Assembly (NCBI RefSeq): GCF_002285265.1
Contig: NZ_NSJB01000011.1
Location: 1-64,000, forward strand
Length of the DNA: 64,000 bases
Source: Vandammella animalimorsus
Lineage (GTDB): Bacteria > Pseudomonadota > Gammaproteobacteria > Burkholderiales > Burkholderiaceae_C
Reading direction: 5' to 3'
A model generated the notes under the pieces. The model was not told the origin of the DNA and made no database searches. It was given only the letters and a program-made list of their open reading frames with translations. Within the stretch, counting starts at the first letter, position 1. Every line of letters begins with the position of its first letter. The position numbers and the translations under genes were made by a program. Shown in pieces: positions 56,113 to 63,837 of this stretch.

Positions 56113-57459
56113 TCACAAATGCTTGACCAGCACGCGGCTTTTGCGGCTCCAGTTGTACTTTTCCTTGCGCGCCTGCGGCAGCCAGTCCGGGTCCACCGTC
56201 TCGAAGCCACGCTTGATGAACCAGTGCATGGTGCGCGTGGTCAGCACGAAGATGCTTTTGAGCCCCTGCGCCCGGGCGCGCTGCTCGATGCGCTTGAGCA
56301 GCTTCTCGCCATCGCCCTGGCCCTGGGCGTGCGGCGAGACGGTGACCGAGGCCATTTCGCCGGTGCGCTCCTCGGGGTAGGGGTAGAGCGCGGCGCAGCC
56401 GAAGATCACGCCGTCGTGCTCGACGATGGTGTAGTTGTTGATGTCGCGCTCGATGTCGGTGCGGCTGCGTTTGACCAGCGTGCCGTCGTTCTCGAAAGGC
56501 TCGATCAGCTGCAGGATGCCGGCCACGTCGTCGGCCGTGGCCTGGCGCACTTCCTCCAGGCGCTCGTCCACCACCATGGTGCCGATGCCGTCGTGCACGT
56601 AGATCTCCAGCAGCATTGAGCCGTCGACCGCATAGGGGATGATGTGGCTGCGCTCGACGCCGCCCTCGCAGGCCTTGATGCAGTAGCTGAGGTAAAAGCC
56701 CGTGTCCGTGGGCAGCTCGGCCTGGGGCGAGCGCTGCAACAGCGCGCGCGCATCGGCCAGCGTCATCTCGGTGACGATGGGGTTGTCCTCGGCCGGCGGC
56801 TGATCGGGCTGCTGGCGGATGCCCGGCAGCTCGCAGACGTACAGCAGCTTGTCGGCCTTGAGCGCGATGGCGATGGAGCTGGCCACCTCCTCCATGCCCA
56901 GGTTGAAGGCCTCGCCCGTGGGCGAGGAGCCAAATGGCGAGAGCAGCACGATGGAGTCCATCTCCAGCGCGTGGCGGATGCCGTCGGCATCGACCTTGCG
57001 CACCTTGCCCGTGTGCTGGAAATCCACCCCGTCCAAAATGCCCATGGGCCGCGCGGTGATGAAGTTGCCCGAGATCACGCGCACCTTGGAGCCGGCCATC
57101 GGCGTATTGGGCAGGCCCTGGCTGAAACAGGCCTCGATCTCAAAGCGCAGCTGCCCGGCCGCTTCCTGCGCGCAGTCCAGCGTTACCGGATCGGTGATGC
57201 GATGGCCCTTGTAGTACTGCGGCTGGTGGCCCTTGGCCAGCAACTGCTCGTTGACCTGTGGGCGAAAGCCATGCACCAGCACGATCTTCACCCCCATGCT
57301 GTGCACCAGCGCCAGGTCCTGCACCAGGTTCTGCAGCTTGCCCGCGGCAATGGCCTCGCCGCAGATGCCGACGACGAAGGTCTGGTGCCGGAACTTGTGG
57401 ATGTAGGGCGCGACCGAGCGGAACCAGGGAACGAAGGTGAAGTTGAAGACGTTGGACAT
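56113..57459 (-). CDS. argA: N-acetylglutamate synthase
   Basis: ArgA makes N-acetylglutamate, committing glutamate to arginine (448 aa). The N-terminal amino-acid-kinase-like domain shows VKIVLVHGFRPQVNEQL, KVRVISGNFITARPMG and SIVLLSPFGSSPTGEAFNL. The C-terminal GNAT domain has MASVTVSPHAQGQGDGEKLL and KSIFVLTTRTMHWFIKRGF. This two-domain form is usually feedback-inhibited by arginine. argD and argF lie about 20 kb away, so the pathway is dispersed. Confidence 0.94.
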   Translation of the reverse strand: MSNVFNFTFVPWFRSVAPYIHKFRHQTFVVGICGEAIAAGKLQNLVQDLALVHSMGVKIVLVHGFRPQVNEQLLAKGHQPQYYKGHRITDPVTLDCAQEAAGQLRFEIEACFSQGLPNTPMAGSKVRVISGNFITARPMGILDGVDFQHTGKVRKVDADGIRHALEMDSIVLLSPFGSSPTGEAFNLGMEEVASSIAIALKADKLLYVCELPGIRQQPDQPPAEDNPIVTEMTLADARALLQRSPQAELPTDTGFYLSYCIKACEGGVERSHIIPYAVDGSMLLEIYVHDGIGTMVVDERLEEVRQATADDVAGILQLIEPFENDGTLVKRSRTDIERDINNYTIVEHDGVIFGCAALYPYPEERTGEMASVTVSPHAQGQGDGEKLLKRIEQRARAQGLKSIFVLTTRTMHWFIKRGFETVDPDWLPQARKEKYNWSRKSRVLVKHL

Positions 57460-57606
57460 GGGGCGAGCAGCGTGGTGGCGGCACTGGTAAATCAATGGGG
57501 CCGCCATTGTGGTGCAGTTTGCGCACCATCGCGCTGAGGATGGCGCCCATGGCGCAGCAATGCACGGCGCCTCTCCAAGGCCTGGATGGCCTGAAAGGGC
57601 AGGCTG

Positions 57607-59586
57607 TTACAGCTGCGTCTGCGGCGCGCTGTCCCAGCCGGCCTCGTAGTCGCGCGCCAGGCGTTGCAATTGCAGGCGCACGCTGGCGGCCATGGACAGG
57701 TAGTGCTTGGGGCCCAGCACCTGCCTGAGCTCGGCCTGCGTGGCGTAGCCCACGGCCTTGCGCTGGGTGCGGCGGATGTGCTGGCTGCGCTGCCAGCGGG
57801 CCTCGACGGCGGGCAGGTCTTGCGCGCAGACGATGGCGTCCTCGGGGTGCATCAGCATGTGCGCGGCAATCTTTTGCTGGTGGCGCTGCAGCACTTGCTG
57901 CACTGGCGTGCGGGCCGGCAGGCGCTCCAGATAGACCGGCGGCTCGTACTGGAAGGGCGAGGGGCTTTCCCACTGCGTGATGATGACGCTGCCCGATTCG
58001 AGCAGGGTTTCGCAGGTGAGCATGGCCTGGGTCTTCCATTGCCCGCGCAGGGCCTGCAGCGCAAAGCCCAGCAGGCCCGGCCATTGGGGCTTGACGACGA
58101 AGGCGGCCACGCCGGTCTCGCCGCGCGCGTCGGTGTAGATGCGCACCAGGGTGCGCTGGCCGAGCAGCTTGGACAGGCCGTTGGCCTCGGCATCGGCCAG
58201 GTGGCGCAGGCCGGCGGCGCTCAGGGCCGCGCCGATCTTGTCGATCAGGCGGCGCTGCCCGGCCGGGTAGTCGCCAGCTTGCACGGTGCGCAGGCCGCAG
58301 GCGCCCTTGTAGGCTTCGTTGAGGAACAGCTGGGCGATGGAGATGGCCTGCTGCGTGCGGGCGTCGCCGGCCTCGGCGCTGGCCGCGCCCTGGCTGGCGG
58401 GCGCGGTCTGCTTGCGCCTGAGGCTGCTGCGGCGTTTTTTCCCCTTCTCCGCGCTGGGCAGTTGAACGTGTTGCACGACCGTTTGCTGGGGCGCGTCTGG
58501 CTGCGGCTGCGCCGGGGCGCTGACTGCACCGGCCGCGTTGGCTGTGCTGGTGGCTGTACTGGCGTAGTGCGCTGCGTTTGTGTCTTCCGCCAGCTCGGCC
58601 TGGGCGGCGCTGGCCTGGGCCGCCGCCGGGGCGGGCTGGGCCTGTTGAGCCTGGCTGTGGGGGCCTTCGTCCAGGCTGTCGGCCAACGCCGTGCTCATGC
58701 CCTCGCAGGAGCAGGCTTCGCTGCTGCCGCCGCAGCCGCCTTCCTGCGAGCGGCGGAGCAGCTTTTGCACGTGGGCGTAGCCGGGGTGGCGCGGGTCCAT
58801 CAGCGCCAGCACGCGCTCGTAAGTGGCCACGGCCTGCTCGAACTGGCCCAGCTCGTGCAGGCACATGCCCACGCGGGTGGCGATGCTGGGCTGCTCGCTC
58901 AGCGCCAGGCAGCGCTGCCAGTCGGCGCAGGCGTGTTCCAGGCCTGCGCGCTCATAGTAGTGCCCGTGCGAGGTGCGCACCACTTGCTCGGGCGGCAGCT
59001 GCGCGGCCTGGGCCGGCTCGAGCAGGGCCAGCTGGCGCAGGCGGTGCGCGCGCTGCTTGAGCAGGTCGATGCGATCAGGCGCGAGGGCGATGGCGCGCTC
59101 GAGCAGCAGCTGGGCCTCGCGCAGTTTTTCCGCTGGCGGCGCGGGCTGCTGCGCCAGGGTCTGGGCCAGCAGCGCCAGCACGTCGGCGTTGTCGGGCTCC
59201 AGGGCGCGCAGGCGGCGCAGCAGCGCCTCGTTGCGACGCGCCACATGGCGGTCGAGCTCTTGCTGGCGCTCTTGCAAGGCTGCGGCCTCGGCCGCGTCCA
59301 GGGCGCTGGTGTCGATGTCCAGCCGATCGCCGCGCTGGCCCACGCGCACCTGCAGCAGCGCGGCCTGTACGTGGTCGGGCCGGTGCTTGAGCGTGGCCTG
59401 CAGCGCCTCGCGCAGTGCCTCGAGCCGGCCCAGCTGCTGCAGCAGGCAGGCGCGCTGCCAGTGCAGCTCGGCGTTCTGCGGCGCCTGGGCGCACAGGGCC
59501 TGGACGGCGTGCAGCTTGCGCTCCAGCAGGGCGCGCTGTTCGGCGTCGGCGGCTTCGATCGGCGGTGGCACGAAAGTGCTGACCAT
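57607..59586 (-). CDS. TPR-containing protein of unknown function
   Basis: A 659-aa protein. Residues 1-300 form helical TPR-like repeats (LHWQRACLLQQLGRLEALRE, CLALSEQPSIATRVGMCLHE, FEQAVATYERVLALMDPRHP). A cysteine cluster GGCGGSSEACSCEG (near residue 293) follows, then a 110-residue Ala/Gln/Thr-rich linker and a C-terminal domain of about 250 residues that I do not recognise. No signal peptide or membrane helix is seen. ATG 59586 has an AAGGAG Shine-Dalgarno sequence. It lies 208 bp after the AAA+/M41 gene and may be its adaptor or substrate receptor. Confidence 0.8.
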   Translation of the reverse strand: MVSTFVPPPIEAADAEQRALLERKLHAVQALCAQAPQNAELHWQRACLLQQLGRLEALREALQATLKHRPDHVQAALLQVRVGQRGDRLDIDTSALDAAEAAALQERQQELDRHVARRNEALLRRLRALEPDNADVLALLAQTLAQQPAPPAEKLREAQLLLERAIALAPDRIDLLKQRAHRLRQLALLEPAQAAQLPPEQVVRTSHGHYYERAGLEHACADWQRCLALSEQPSIATRVGMCLHELGQFEQAVATYERVLALMDPRHPGYAHVQKLLRRSQEGGCGGSSEACSCEGMSTALADSLDEGPHSQAQQAQPAPAAAQASAAQAELAEDTNAAHYASTATSTANAAGAVSAPAQPQPDAPQQTVVQHVQLPSAEKGKKRRSSLRRKQTAPASQGAASAEAGDARTQQAISIAQLFLNEAYKGACGLRTVQAGDYPAGQRRLIDKIGAALSAAGLRHLADAEANGLSKLLGQRTLVRIYTDARGETGVAAFVVKPQWPGLLGFALQALRGQWKTQAMLTCETLLESGSVIITQWESPSPFQYEPPVYLERLPARTPVQQVLQRHQQKIAAHMLMHPEDAIVCAQDLPAVEARWQRSQHIRRTQRKAVGYATQAELRQVLGPKHYLSMAASVRLQLQRLARDYEAGWDSAPQTQL

Positions 59587-59664
59587 GTTCCTCACTCCTT
59601 GGGCTCTTGTCTTGTATTGCAGCCTCTGGCGCGGGGCGCGCCAGAGGCCTTGCGAGGCGCATCA

Positions 59665-59679
59665 TAGAGCGTGTTGTGC
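59665..59679. repeat. Solo end of a REP-pair repeat
   Basis: TAGAGCGTGTTGTGC matches the left end of R2 and R4 at 14 of 15 positions and then diverges. It lies in the spacer between the TPR and AAA+/M41 genes. Confidence 0.4.
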
Positions 59680-59794
59680 ATTTTGCGCCCGATCTGGCGG
59701 CCTGGCGCTGTTGCTGCGCCGCCATGGATGGTCTGCGCGCATCGGCAGCCGAACACGGCGCGCGGTGATTCGTGCAGGCCTTGCCTGTGCCGCC

Positions 59795-61804
59795 TCAAGA
59801 GTTGGGCGTGTGCGCCCGGTCGCGCTGGGCAAAGGCTTGCAGGCGCTGGGCGTAGTCGGTCAGCACCATCGGGTCCTGCGGGGCCATGGGCACGCCCAGC
59901 AGCTCGGCCAGGCGCTGGCGGCCGAGCTCGCCGTGGCGCATCAGCTCGTCCACCAGGGCCAGCAGCTTTTGGCGGTGCGCGGTGATGAGCGCCGTGCTGC
60001 GCTGCATCTGCGTCTGCAGGATGGCTTCAATGGCCAGGTTGCTGGGCTGCACGTCGGTGTTGAGGTGCTCGTTCGTTTCGCTGGTCACATCGGTGCGCGC
60101 CAGGCGCTCGCCATAGCCGAGAAAGCGCACGAAGCGGCTGGCGTATTCGGTGGCGTGCTGGATGTCCTGCTCGGCGCCGCTGGAGCAAGCATCGGCGCCG
60201 AAGACCACGCCCTCGGCCGCGCGCCCGGCCAGGCAGACGGCGATGCGGTCCAGCCAGTTGCTGCGCGACCACGATTGCAGGTCGCTGAACATGGCGTAGC
60301 CGCCCTCGAAGCTGGCGACGTTGATGCGGATTTCCTGCGGCGCGCTGCCAAACAGCAGCGCATGCACCAGGCCGTGGCCGGCCTCGTGCACGGCCAGCAG
60401 GGCGCGAAAGTCGCTGAGCGTGCGCTGGCGCAGCGTGCGCACTTCAAAGGCCACGGGGCAGTGCAGCTGCTGGCCCTGCGCGTGCGCGCACAGGCTTTGG
60501 CCGTCCGCGCCCAGCCGCACCTCGACGGTGCTGCCCGCGGGCGCGCCCAGGCCCAGGGCCCAGACGGCGGCATTGACCAGCGGCGTGCCCAGCACGGCAT
60601 GCAGGGTGGAGAACAGCGGCCGCGTGCCCTGGGCGGGGAAGACGCCGTTGGCGTAAATCTCGCGGCGCACCTCGGGCGTGATGACAAAGTGCAGCCCGGT
60701 GCTGCGCTGCATTTGCTCGGTGTACTGCGCGCAGTGCTCGTCGATGATGCGCGTGTAGGCGGCGCGGTTGAGCGAGGGGTAGATCAGGTGCTGATTGCCC
60801 AGGCGCGCGACCTGCTCGGGCTTGAAGCGCCGCGCCAGCGCGCGTTTGACGTCGATGAGCGAGAGCCGCAGGCTGTGGCTGTGGAACACGTCGGCGTCGG
60901 TGTCGCAGTCCTCCACGCGCCGCGCCAGCGATTCGTACATTTCGTCCAGGTTGCCGCAGACGAAGATCAGCAGGCGGCTGTAGTCCGTCTCCCAGCTTTG
61001 CTCGCTGCCGCGCACGCGCGCCAGCTCCTGCTCGACGCGCTCGGGCGGCCAGGCCATGATCTCCAGCAGCGGCTCCTTGAGCTTGAGCGCGCGCTTGAGC
61101 GACTGGGCCTCGTAGGCGCTCACGCGCAGCGGCTTCTTGGCCTGCGCGCGGCGCTCGCCGGGGCTGCGCTGCTGCTCGTCGTAGCGCGCTTCGGCCAGGG
61201 TCGATTCCAGCTCGCCCAGGAAGGAGACCGAGGGCGGCAGACGCCCGTCCGAGAGCAGGGCCCAGACATCCTGATAGCGCTGCACTTCGACTTCCTGGCG
61301 TTGCTCGTTGAGGGTGCGGTAGCGCTGGAATTCGTCCAGCACCAGAATGCCCGGCTCGCCCTCGTCGATGCCCGAGCTCTCCAGAATGCGCGAGATGCTG
61401 CCAGCGCCGTGCCAGCTGCTGGTGCCGTGGGAGAAGCCGTCCATCTGCACTTCCACGAAGCGGTCGTAGAAGCCCAGCTTGCGCGCCAGCGAGCGCGTGA
61501 GCTGGGTTTTGCCCGTGCCGGTCAGCCCCCACAGGCAGACGATCACCGGGCGCTGGATCAGCTCGGGCATGACGTACCAGGCGCGGATGGTGTCGATCAC
61601 GCGGTCGATGATGGCGTCGATGCCAAACAGCTCCTGCTTGAGCTGCTGGGCGGCCTGCTGCAAAGCGTGGCTGCGCGCGGCCATGCGCTGCATCAGCTGC
61701 TGGCGCTCGGCGTCTTCTGCGGCGGGCAGGGCCGCTGCGTCTTGCCGTGCCGCGCTGGCTTTGTCTGTGTCGTTGCCTTTGTGTGGCTTGGTCTGCGATG
61801 TCAT
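59795..61804 (-). CDS. Clp-type AAA+ ATPase fused to FtsH-type M41 peptidase
   Basis: A 669-aa soluble protein with no membrane segment. The N-terminal half is an AAA+ module: Walker A GLTGTGKT (93-100), Walker B ILVLDEF (153-159), sensor-1-like LLIFVCGN (279-285) and a sensor-2-like GTRPL (393-397), closer to HslU/Clp ATPases than to FtsH. The C-terminal half is an M41-type zinc peptidase: HEAGHG (473-478) and the third ligand D547 in SSGAEQDIQHATEY. It should unfold and degrade proteins. I start at 61804 (MTSQTKPHKGND). Neighbours are a small ORF upstream and a TPR protein downstream. Confidence 0.85.
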   Translation of the reverse strand: MTSQTKPHKGNDTDKASAARQDAAALPAAEDAERQQLMQRMAARSHALQQAAQQLKQELFGIDAIIDRVIDTIRAWYVMPELIQRPVIVCLWGLTGTGKTQLTRSLARKLGFYDRFVEVQMDGFSHGTSSWHGAGSISRILESSGIDEGEPGILVLDEFQRYRTLNEQRQEVEVQRYQDVWALLSDGRLPPSVSFLGELESTLAEARYDEQQRSPGERRAQAKKPLRVSAYEAQSLKRALKLKEPLLEIMAWPPERVEQELARVRGSEQSWETDYSRLLIFVCGNLDEMYESLARRVEDCDTDADVFHSHSLRLSLIDVKRALARRFKPEQVARLGNQHLIYPSLNRAAYTRIIDEHCAQYTEQMQRSTGLHFVITPEVRREIYANGVFPAQGTRPLFSTLHAVLGTPLVNAAVWALGLGAPAGSTVEVRLGADGQSLCAHAQGQQLHCPVAFEVRTLRQRTLSDFRALLAVHEAGHGLVHALLFGSAPQEIRINVASFEGGYAMFSDLQSWSRSNWLDRIAVCLAGRAAEGVVFGADACSSGAEQDIQHATEYASRFVRFLGYGERLARTDVTSETNEHLNTDVQPSNLAIEAILQTQMQRSTALITAHRQKLLALVDELMRHGELGRQRLAELLGVPMAPQDPMVLTDYAQRLQAFAQRDRAHTPNS

Positions 61805-61870
61805 GGGCGTGAAGAGGCAGGCCAGAGCGCCGCCGCCTGGCCGCAATGTTTGGTTTTTGGGGCGAGGACG

Positions 61871-62104
61871 TTACTCGGCGCTGGCCCAGTCGCGTGTGCG
61901 GATGCTGCGCTGCAAGGCCATGCGCTCGGCCCGGCGCTGGGCGCCCTGGCTGCGCATGTGCTTGCCGCCAGCGCCTGTGCTGGCCTTGGCGGCCAGGGCC
62001 CGGGCATAGGGGTTGCGCACCGGCAGGCTGGCTGCAGGCAAGGTGTGCCGCGTCGGGCGGGATGTTTGGGCGCGGCTGGCGCCCGCAGTGGGGTTGGCAC
62101 GCAT
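61871..62104 (-). CDS. Small basic protein, hypothetical
   Basis: A 77-codon frame beginning MRANPTAGASRAQTSRPTRH and ending RTRDWASAE, with many Arg and Lys and no hydrophobic segment. A GGAG Shine-Dalgarno sequence stands at good distance from ATG 62104. It ends 66 bp before the AAA+/M41 gene on the same strand. The frame is open upstream, so a longer form is possible. Coding status is uncertain in this GC-rich DNA. Confidence 0.45.
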   Translation of the reverse strand: MRANPTAGASRAQTSRPTRHTLPAASLPVRNPYARALAAKASTGAGGKHMRSQGAQRRAERMALQRSIRTRDWASAE

Positions 62105-62406
62105 GTGCTGCTCCAGAAAGTCGAAAACCCTGGACAGAAGAACCTGCCAGGGTTTGCCCCGGCTGGGTGCGGCGGTGCGCATCCAGCCAGGGCGGTGTGG
62201 AGCGCACGAGTCAGTGAAGAGGCGAACAGAGCATGGGGCAGCTCTTGTGGATGAGGGGGGCGGGGGCTCAAGAAGGCGCGCATTGTGCCAAGCCCTGTGC
62301 CAGCAGGGCAAGGGCTGCTGGCGCTGAGGGGGCCGGCGGGGCCGGGGAAGGCAGGGCGGCTGTTGCTTTTGCGCAGCAGCGGGGGCGCAAAGTTGCCTTA
62401 CACGCG
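62105..62406. other. Intergenic stretch without a supported gene
   Basis: About 300 bp between the small basic ORF and the EamA transporter. Open frames cross it on both strands, but none has a ribosome-binding site and a recognisable start. No repeat of the families above and no clear terminator was seen. The promoter of the AAA+/M41 cassette is expected here but was not found. Confidence 0.5.
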
Positions 62407-63324
62407 CTACGGCCGCCGCCGGCGCGGGCGCCATTCGCTGACCAGCACGCCGATGACGATCAGCACCGCGCCGGCAATGGCCAGCGGCGGCAGGCGGTCG
62501 CCGGCGATGCGCCCGGCCACGCCGCCCCAGACGGGCTCGCCCGCGTAGATCAGCGTGGCGCGCGTGGGCGAGACGGTTTTCTGCGCCCAGTTCATGACCA
62601 GCTGGATGACGATGCTGGAGCAGGCCATGCCGACGGCTGCCAGCAGCCAGACCCAGGAGAAGGCCGGCACGGCCTCGCCCGCCAGCGGCATGGCCAGCCA
62701 GGCCAGCAGCCCGGCTGCCAGCAGCTGCACCACGGTCACGCGCCGCACGTCCACCTTGCCGGCAAAAAAGCCGATCAGGATGACTTCACCCGCAATGCCC
62801 AGCGCGCCCAGCAGGGTGGCCCACTCTCCCGCCTCCATCTGCAGGCCCAGGCCAGCCTCGGGCCCGGCCAGCAGCACCAGCCCGGTGAAGGCAAAGGCCA
62901 CGCCCAGCAGGCTCATGGCATGGGGCGGGCGGCGCAGCACCAGCCATTGCAGCAGCGGCACCAGCGGCACATACATGGCGGTGATGAAGGCCGATTGGCT
63001 GCTGCTGATGGTTTGCAGGCCATAGGTCTGCAGGCCGTAGCCGATGAAGATGCTGGCGCCGATGGCGCTGCCGGCGAGCAGCTCCTGGCGCGTCAGGCCG
63101 CGCATGGCGCGCCAGAAGACCAGCGCGCCCAGCAAGGCGGCGGTGACAAAGCGCAGGCCGACGAAGAACATTGGCCCGCTGTGGCGCATGGCCGCATGCA
63201 CGACGACGAAGGTCGTGCCCCAGACCATGGTGATGAGGATCAGCGCCAGCTCCTGGCGCGAAAACCAGGCGGGCCGGCAGGGCTGGCCGGCGCTGGGCGC
63301 TGGGGCTGGGGGCAGCACAGGCAT
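62407..63324 (-). CDS. EamA/DMT-superfamily transporter
   Basis: A 305-aa protein with about ten membrane helices and two EamA repeats. Landmarks are LILITMVWGTTFVVVHAAMR, FVGLRFVTAALLGALVFW, GYGLQTYGLQTISSSQSAFI and, in the second repeat, TRATLIYAGEPVWGGVAG. The tail is a run of arginines. It may export amino acids or related metabolites; the substrate is not evident. It follows nusB on the same strand after about 40 bp. Confidence 0.88.
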   Translation of the reverse strand: MPVLPPAPAPSAGQPCRPAWFSRQELALILITMVWGTTFVVVHAAMRHSGPMFFVGLRFVTAALLGALVFWRAMRGLTRQELLAGSAIGASIFIGYGLQTYGLQTISSSQSAFITAMYVPLVPLLQWLVLRRPPHAMSLLGVAFAFTGLVLLAGPEAGLGLQMEAGEWATLLGALGIAGEVILIGFFAGKVDVRRVTVVQLLAAGLLAWLAMPLAGEAVPAFSWVWLLAAVGMACSSIVIQLVMNWAQKTVSPTRATLIYAGEPVWGGVAGRIAGDRLPPLAIAGAVLIVIGVLVSEWRPRRRRP

Positions 63325-63363
63325 GGGAACAGGTGCAGCGGGAGAGCCGACCGCACGCCTGTG

Positions 63364-63837
63364 TCAGCGTTGCTGCGGCTGCTGGCCCAGCTCCAGCGGG
63401 CGCAGCTGGGCAGCCAGCGCGTGCAGCACGGCGTTGACGTATTTGTGGCCATCGGTGCCGCCAAAGGCCTTGGCCAGTTCCACGTATTCGTTGATGACGA
63501 CTTTCCAGGGCACGTCCGGCGCGTGCTGGAATTCGTACACGCCCATCCACATGATGGCGTGCTCGATGGGCGAGAGCTCGCCCAGCGGGCGGTCCAGCAC
63601 CGGGGCGATGGTGGCGTCCAGCGCGGCGGCCTGCTCGATGCAGCCGTGGAGCAGGGCGTCGTACAGCGCCGAGTCGGCCTTGTGAAAGCCGCTGAGGCCG
63701 CGCGTGAACTGGTCGATTTCGCGCGCCTCGTTCTTGCCCACCAGGCGTTGGTACAGAGCCTGCAGGGCAAATTCGCGCGCGCGGCTGCGGGCGCTTTTCT
63801 TGCTGCTGGGGGTGGGGGGCTGGGCAGCGGGGCTCAT
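63364..63837 (-). CDS. nusB: Transcription antitermination factor NusB
   Basis: NusB binds boxA RNA with S10 in rRNA antitermination (157 aa). The N-terminal tail is Ser/Lys-rich. [19 protein letters not shown] and the C-terminal [20 protein letters not shown] and [20 protein letters not shown] are typical. Its start overlaps the ribH stop (ATGA), the common ribH-nusB arrangement. Confidence 0.95.

Follow-up and report, generated by a model that had tools for sequence, protein, structure and literature searches.

AAA+ proteases are usually sorted by fixed pairs of motor and blade, the FtsH motor going with an M41 peptidase and the Clp motor with ClpP. A locus of Vandammella animalimorsus raises the question of whether these parts can be exchanged, and of what a protein built in this way would work with. 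It lies in a stretch of 64,000 nucleotides (contig NZ_NSJB01000011.1, positions 1 to 64,000; hereafter the window) and encodes a protein of 669 amino acids (aa) in which a Clp-type ATPase is joined to an M41 peptidase. The conserved core of this system is formed by a leader RNA, a small basic protein, and the Clp/M41 fusion. The architecture of the fusion (Clp D2-type ATPase plus M41 peptidase) is well supported, while a leader that appears to combine a short open reading frame (ORF), alternative pairings, and a hidden Shine-Dalgarno sequence (SD) is new in this analysis and moderately supported. No description of this operon has been found in the open-access literature, subscription journals being largely outside the search.

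An earlier note on this DNA had pointed out three ORFs, which all lie on the minus strand: the fusion, a small basic ORF preceding it, and the gene of a TPR protein of 659 aa. The coordinates and sizes that it gave are correct. The motifs that it listed are also present: GLTGTGKT (residues 93-100), ILVLDEF, GTRPL, HEAGHG (473-478) with Asp547 downstream of it, and, in the TPR protein, the Cys cluster. Pfam models for Peptidase_M41 (residues 467-634, E 9.6e-20), AAA (89-178, E 7.8e-7), and ClpB_D2-small (345-411, E 4.2e-5) match the fusion, all of them above their cut-offs. A profile of the N-terminal half matched Clp proteins alone in the PDB, since the 15 sequences at E <= 1e-3 were without exception ClpB, ClpC, or ClpE, and the match to the FtsH_fam model is confined to residues 467-629. 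The proposal of a Clp-type, not FtsH-type, ATPase joined to M41 is therefore upheld. The ATPase half holds the features expected of a Clp protein, that is, Walker A and B, the LLSDGR box, sensor 1, and a D2-small domain with a GTRP sensor 2; the spacing between the LLSDGR box and sensor 1 is ~97 residues, and that of ClpB is shorter. The M41 half retains HEXXH (as HEAGH) and the Asp that acts as third ligand. All 33 members that were aligned have these ATPase and peptidase residues unchanged (a script artefact kept L128 out of the motif counts). The window genome also encodes a separate canonical FtsH, which scores 243 bits against 74 bits for the fusion.

The absence of an evident membrane anchor, also claimed previously, agrees with the hydropathy of the whole window protein, in which no strong transmembrane stretch was seen (maximum 1.5, against 2.3 for a control FtsH). 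The median over 85 relatives is 1.4, with three at 1.7-1.9, these values being scored from the matched part on, so that N-terminal extensions fall outside them. In PHROGs, the fusion partly matches an ATP-dependent protease family as well as families of unknown function. Several observations weigh against this picture of the protein. A pore loop 1 of the GYVG type was found in none of the 72 segments that could be located among the 85 proteins, although an aromatic residue is often present in that stretch (48, by script); a single-sequence search gave weak matches of the ATPase region to Msp1 and Lon (E 0.002-0.005); and the monomer structure model has low confidence in two stretches, residues 125-134 and the greater part of 292-343. 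Weighing both sides, the fusion is very probably a soluble Clp-type AAA+ protease, and it is predicted to be catalytically competent. Its chains are hypothesized to assemble as a soluble hexamer, with a Clp ring that would unfold substrates into the ring of M41 proteases. With motor and blade in one chain, it would dispense with ClpP and act like FtsH or ClpXP.

A search of 60 related genomes gave relatives of the whole fusion in 7, among them the own genome and one in which the contig end cuts the gene. An independent draw of 150 genomes of the family gave 15 with a fusion, and a GTDB contig set gave 114 loci; 80 of these loci were retained, mostly under names of Comamonadaceae and related Burkholderiales. 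This recurrence in related genomes and GTDB contigs indicates that the fusion is not a chance ORF. In the wider phylum, the own genome was alone among 299 at E <= 1e-40, in a draw that held few members of the family. The counts given below per 87 sequences refer to the window plus 80, 1, and 5 loci, a set that was not de-duplicated (L054 comes from the same genome as G008). Neighbour gene calls in several of the context surveys come from a crude composition script, and in one of these surveys the output for L162 and L163 is incomplete. One locus, L175, was excluded on account of a stop in its reference. Spread by plasmids or phages was considered and rejected: 53 plasmid records match, none over more than 80% of the query, and among the 20 matches listed the coverage runs from residue 435 onward, the M41 part alone; the phage records searched gave no match. 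Two further copies are described here by reading of their surroundings. One (L134, 9001-10881), on a 296-kb viral contig, shows 41% identity and keeps the catalytic residues, with HETGH, among MoxR-like, exonuclease-like, and glutaredoxin-like neighbours. The other (L160, G173:C59, 5588-7525) is a second copy within one genome and lies among UmuC-like, MerR-like, and IS-like genes.

This distribution bears on the idea of an anti-phage defence or toxin-antitoxin module, in which the small protein would be harmful or a sensor and the protease the effector or antidote. The patchy presence in the family, the many contexts, the copy that shares an island with genes of UmuC-like and IS-like types, and the relative on the viral contig are all in its favour. 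However, no PADLOC model covers the fusion (with the fusion and the TPR protein scanned, the best hit had E 2e-5 and reached part of the ATPase), no match to the fusion appeared in 50,697 phage records, the commonest neighbours are the housekeeping genes hrpA-like and argA, and one genome, G179, keeps the small gene without the fusion. Such a module is accordingly regarded as quite improbable.

The small basic ORF, which had received only a passing mention, has turned out to be the conserved partner of the fusion. By tblastn, a homologue lies near the fusion in 64 of the 87 sequences, window included, covering 19 named genera and never on the opposite strand. In 14 of the 15 fusion-bearing genomes of the family draw the two genes are side by side, and in the fifteenth (G154) the small gene is located elsewhere. 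When the earliest in-frame start is taken, the gap between the genes is within 8 nt in 43 of 61 loci, a choice that favours short gaps and leaves 3 of the 64 loci missing and 2 of the 61 values clearly mis-started; in the window it is 66 nt. The surroundings vary widely, the commonest neighbours being those named above, with argA inside the fetched stretch of 45 of the 87 sequences. The pair recurs amid these varied neighbours, so the small gene and the fusion seem to have been kept together while their surroundings changed, and co-production of both proteins is predicted.

No Pfam or NCBIfam model matches this small protein family, PHROGs gave no match, and the PDB gave one insignificant match for the protein and none for its shorter relatives. 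A search for ArfA among 16 members of the family and among the relatives tried was likewise without a match, which leaves room for a very distant relation. The core of the protein (PRNPVARALA...GAGKHIRSQGAQRRADRVAL) shows weak similarity (E 6e-8 to 2.5e-4) to basic proteins of shorter length, 53-56 aa, and to proteins encoded by 4 of the 143 genomes drawn from the class. Short, very basic relatives (PRNPLVAAA..RKAGSHRKS..) occur at L157, L161, L163, L164, and L165; those scanned had no Pfam or NCBIfam match. Four of the five (L157, L161, L164, and L165) lie beside an ogt-like gene, and three also have an EamA-like gene. A divergent member of the family is encoded directly upstream of argA at L158 (6861-7070, minus strand), in a genome without the fusion (G145).

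The function of the small protein has to be approached through the loci in which the arrangement differs. In G154, the leader and the small gene stand alone and the fusion is on another contig; G179, which is 99% complete, has the small gene and a leader (by eye) and lacks the fusion, and its genus-mate G027 has all three. These arrangements argue for a function of the small protein of its own, which supports two readings equally. According to the first, the protein would be an adaptor for the fusion protease, a role that is suggested tentatively and is somewhat doubtful; it probably binds RNA or ribosomes and would guide the protease to the products of blocked translation. According to the second, which is rather unlikely, the small protein would be the main substrate, a regulator of translation or nucleic acids that is induced through the leader and whose level is limited by the co-produced protease in a feedback. 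Small, very basic proteins are common clients of AAA+ proteases, the two genes are very close, and the leader accompanies the small gene even in G154 and G179, the first with its fusion elsewhere and the second with none. On the other hand, 22 of the 87 sequences have a fusion without a detected adjacent small gene and are not cut there, and a 669-aa protease dedicated to one substrate would be costly.

The adaptor reading also faces facts that do not favour it. Besides the case of G179, no small ORF was detected in 23 of the 87 sequences, one of which is cut by the contig end and 16 of which are Variovorax, and the second fusion copy of G173 has no small gene. In addition, the binding of RNA or of the protease by the small protein, its adaptor role, and the direction of the switch described below are all properties that we infer. 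In Variovorax (L076, L132, and others), the fusion without a small gene is preceded by an ORF of ~30 codons (MSFLALTPLRSRCARH... RPA), and the upstream stretch holds an inverted repeat, GTAAA-N5-TTTAC, close to what may be a promoter; by eye, this could be a leader of another kind.

The leader RNA is the third element of the core. Among the 64 loci with the small ORF, 57 carry a leader with an ORF of 6-11 codons, the stop of which (TGA in 55, TAA in 2) lies 16-22 nt before a GCCCCGGC-like motif, and most leaders have a terminator-like hairpin before the small gene, as read from the sequences. The regular expression used for the leader was written after the sequences had been seen, and it missed seven loci (L064, L079, L087, L098, L099, L108, and L133), of which L064 looks by eye like a leader variant. 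An SD, a short ORF, and a stop placed 12-20 nt before the motif were found together in 51 of the 57 loci, against 0.0 expected from mononucleotide shuffles; kinship among the loci inflates all these leader counts. A leader model (R1) matched 31 of the 150 family genomes at E <= 0.01, 14 of them strongly (E <= 6e-8): 13 of the strong matches belong to loci with both small gene and fusion, and the remaining one to the small gene that stands alone in G154. This search has false negatives, because it missed G027, which is part of the alignment of the model.

When six loci were compared with Rfam 15 at the gathering score, the leader had no match and the sole hit was a Proteo-phage-1 RNA (RF03044, 85 bits), which is located at L071 (1490-1569), ~7 kb from the fusion locus. 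At E <= 5, the window gave three sub-threshold hits, of which the one over the leader is BcKCsr7 (14.6 bits, gathering 59, E 3.6). A scan of 57400-63400 showed no sigma-70 promoter. In the area of the terminator-like hairpin of the window, the consensus scan gives another stem, at 62163-62146. An arrest-peptide leader was also considered and rejected for its lack of codon-position bias. The sequences of the leader peptides differ without a bias at third positions, and therefore it would be the position of the ribosome, and not a specific peptide, that counts.

The pairings of the leader are mutually exclusive, and one of them hides the SD. Region 1, which follows the leader stop, is complementary either to region 2 or to the SD in front of the small gene; region 2 is complementary to region 3, and the motif to the 3' arm of the terminator. 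The complementarity between region 1 and the SD is kept with different sequences, as in CGGTTCC/GGAACCG, GCACTCC/GGAGTGC, CGCTCCAT/ATGGAGCG, and, in the window, GCTCCA/TGGAGC. The pairing of each leader with its own partner was reached by 0 of 5000 permutations for region 1 with region 2, for region 1 with the SD, and for region 2 with region 3, both with distinct sequences (38-51) and with a thinned set (18-19); a control pairing of region 1 with the stretch before the SD did not exceed chance in either set. None of 200 shuffles folds as well as the window leader (z -4.7). Folding with ViennaRNA, which used 28 of the 57 leaders for the alignment and 29 for SD openness, gives partial support: covering the leader stop raises the mean openness of the SD from 0.155 to 0.308 (from 0.04 to 0.37 in the window), and an upstream block leaves it at 0.160.

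Part of these analyses speaks against a switch. Only 12 of the 29 leaders gain more than 0.1 in openness of the SD, and 2 lose openness. A block in the middle of the leader, a control for which the upstream block was substituted in leaders of insufficient length, also lifts the mean, to 0.227. Two control pairings, region 2 with the SD (13/5000) and region 1 with region 3 (21/5000), exceed chance in one set each. The RNAalifold consensus holds only the helix between motif and terminator and none of the three covarying pairings; in that helix 2 of 8 pairs show a double change, in one sequence each, and a shuffle of whole arms was not significant (884/2000; 6 distinct arms, L046 excluded). It can thus be argued that the leader is not a switch, and that the short ORF and the hairpins are remnants or a plain terminator under constitutive expression. 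This explanation draws on the thin covariation of the motif-terminator pairing, on the effect of the mid-leader block, on the lack of conservation of the leader peptide, and on the number of terminator-like sites in 57400-63400 (4 against 2.9 in shuffles, no excess). Nevertheless, it leaves the placement of ORF and stop and the three pairings never equalled by permutation unaccounted for, and it is considered rather unlikely. The leader is more plausibly a ribosome-sensing switch, as judged from its arrangement and covariation.

In such a switch, ribosomes running freely through the leader ORF would let region 1 pair with region 2 and/or the SD, keeping expression low. If a ribosome were instead halted where the leader ORF ends, it would cover region 1 and free the SD, so that more small protein would be made, and the synthesis of the fusion would rise along with it by close coupling. 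The leader hints at translation stress as the signal. The best reading of the whole locus, to which we give about an even chance, is that a soluble AAA+ protease is made together with a small protein that binds nucleic acids or ribosomes, under a ribosome-sensing attenuation. In a more specific version, a bacterial route of ribosome-associated quality control, the leader would sense held-up ribosomes, and a single messenger would yield both a small protein that binds ribosomes and a soluble Clp/M41 protease. The latter would degrade the products that arise when translation fails, with no part played by ClpP, Lon, or tmRNA tagging; this version is speculative and rather improbable.

The order of transcription, on the minus strand, is leader ORF, small basic protein, fusion, and TPR protein, with argA downstream of the locus and nusB and an EamA transporter upstream (Table 1). 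The earlier note had taken the TPR protein for the protease's own adaptor. Its gene is on the same strand as the fusion, 208 nt apart, and is kept in three close genomes. However, the neighbourhood survey (tblastn) found it beside the fusion in only 3 of the 87 sequences, all of one clade and with fusions 95-96% identical, and hence the TPR adaptor fails as a general rule. Moreover, TPR paralogues of the same genus adjoin an ssb-like gene elsewhere, which leaves that role very improbable. The TPR protein had no PHROGs match and no PADLOC hit. The window genome encodes a second, shorter TPR protein related to it (L051, 8450-9316), next to an ssb-like gene.

Table 1. Positions of the features of the locus in the window.
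Feature	Position	Strand	Basis or remark
Leader ORF, MLCSPLH then TGA; weak SD (AAGAG) 5' of the ORF	62211..62234	-	SD/ORF/stop placement across loci; putative
Leader region 1 (GTGCGCTCCA)	62198..62207	-	Partner: region 2 or small-ORF SD
Loop motif GCCCTGGC	62186..62193	-	Best partner in window: region 3; in most relatives, 3' arm of terminator-like hairpin
Leader region 2 (TGGATGCGCAC)	62175..62185	-	
Leader region 3 (CCCAGCCGGGGC)	62156..62167	-	Partner: motif and start of region 2
Terminator-like hairpin 5' of small ORF	62124..62155	-	Minimum-energy fold and alignment; U-run weak in window
Small-ORF SD region (TGGAGCAGCAC)	62105..62115	-	Complementary to region 1
Small basic protein, 77 aa, conserved partner gene	61871..62104	-	ATG 62104, stop 61871; isoelectric point 12, charge ~+12; homologue upstream of fusion, 64/87 sequences
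Clp-type AAA+ ATPase / M41 peptidase fusion, 669 aa	59795..61804	-	ATG 61804, stop 59795
Walker A GLTGTGKT, residues 93-100	61505..61528	-	
ClpB D2-small domain, residues 345-411, with GTRP sensor-2 motif	60572..60772	-	
Peptidase_M41 domain, residues 467-634; HEAGH 473-477, Asp547	59903..60406	-	
TPR protein, 659 aa; clade-specific neighbour, outside the conserved system	57607..59586	-	ATG 59586, stop 57607; 208 nt after fusion

A Clp motor joined to an M41 blade recurs across many genera within a single bacterial family and also occurs on a phage-like contig, which provides a test of the interchangeability of motors and blades. Two further elements are tied to the fusion at this locus, small basic proteins of a family that has no name and a leader RNA of the ribosome-sensing kind, and this coupling makes both the signal and the class of substrates directly testable.

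With FtsH and the m-AAA and i-AAA proteases, the fusion shares the M41 peptidase with HEXXH and the Asp ligand, but by sequence its ATPase is of the Clp D2 type, and it has no strong transmembrane stretch. With HSP100/Clp proteins (the D2 of ClpB and ClpC, ClpX, HslU, and Skd3), it shares Walker A and B, the LLSDGR box, sensor 1, and the D2-small domain with the GTRP sensor 2; in contrast to them, it carries its own M41 peptidase and lacks the GYVG pore loop. The small protein resembles ArfA-type rescue factors in being short and very basic and in that its production would be tied to trouble in translation, although no Pfam match supports homology. As for the leader, a structure is proposed for toiL-topAI that hides the ribosome-binding site until ribosomes stall on an upstream ORF (PMC12121999), and ermC is said to sense a global slowdown of translation (PMC2965389). 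Both systems have in common with the leader a short upstream ORF, an RNA structure hiding the ribosome-binding site, and the position of the ribosome as the proposed switch, whereas the genes are unrelated, the RNA is different, and here most leaders add a terminator-like hairpin (PMC12121999, PMC2965389). The closest working analogue of this leader is toiL-topAI (PMC12121999).
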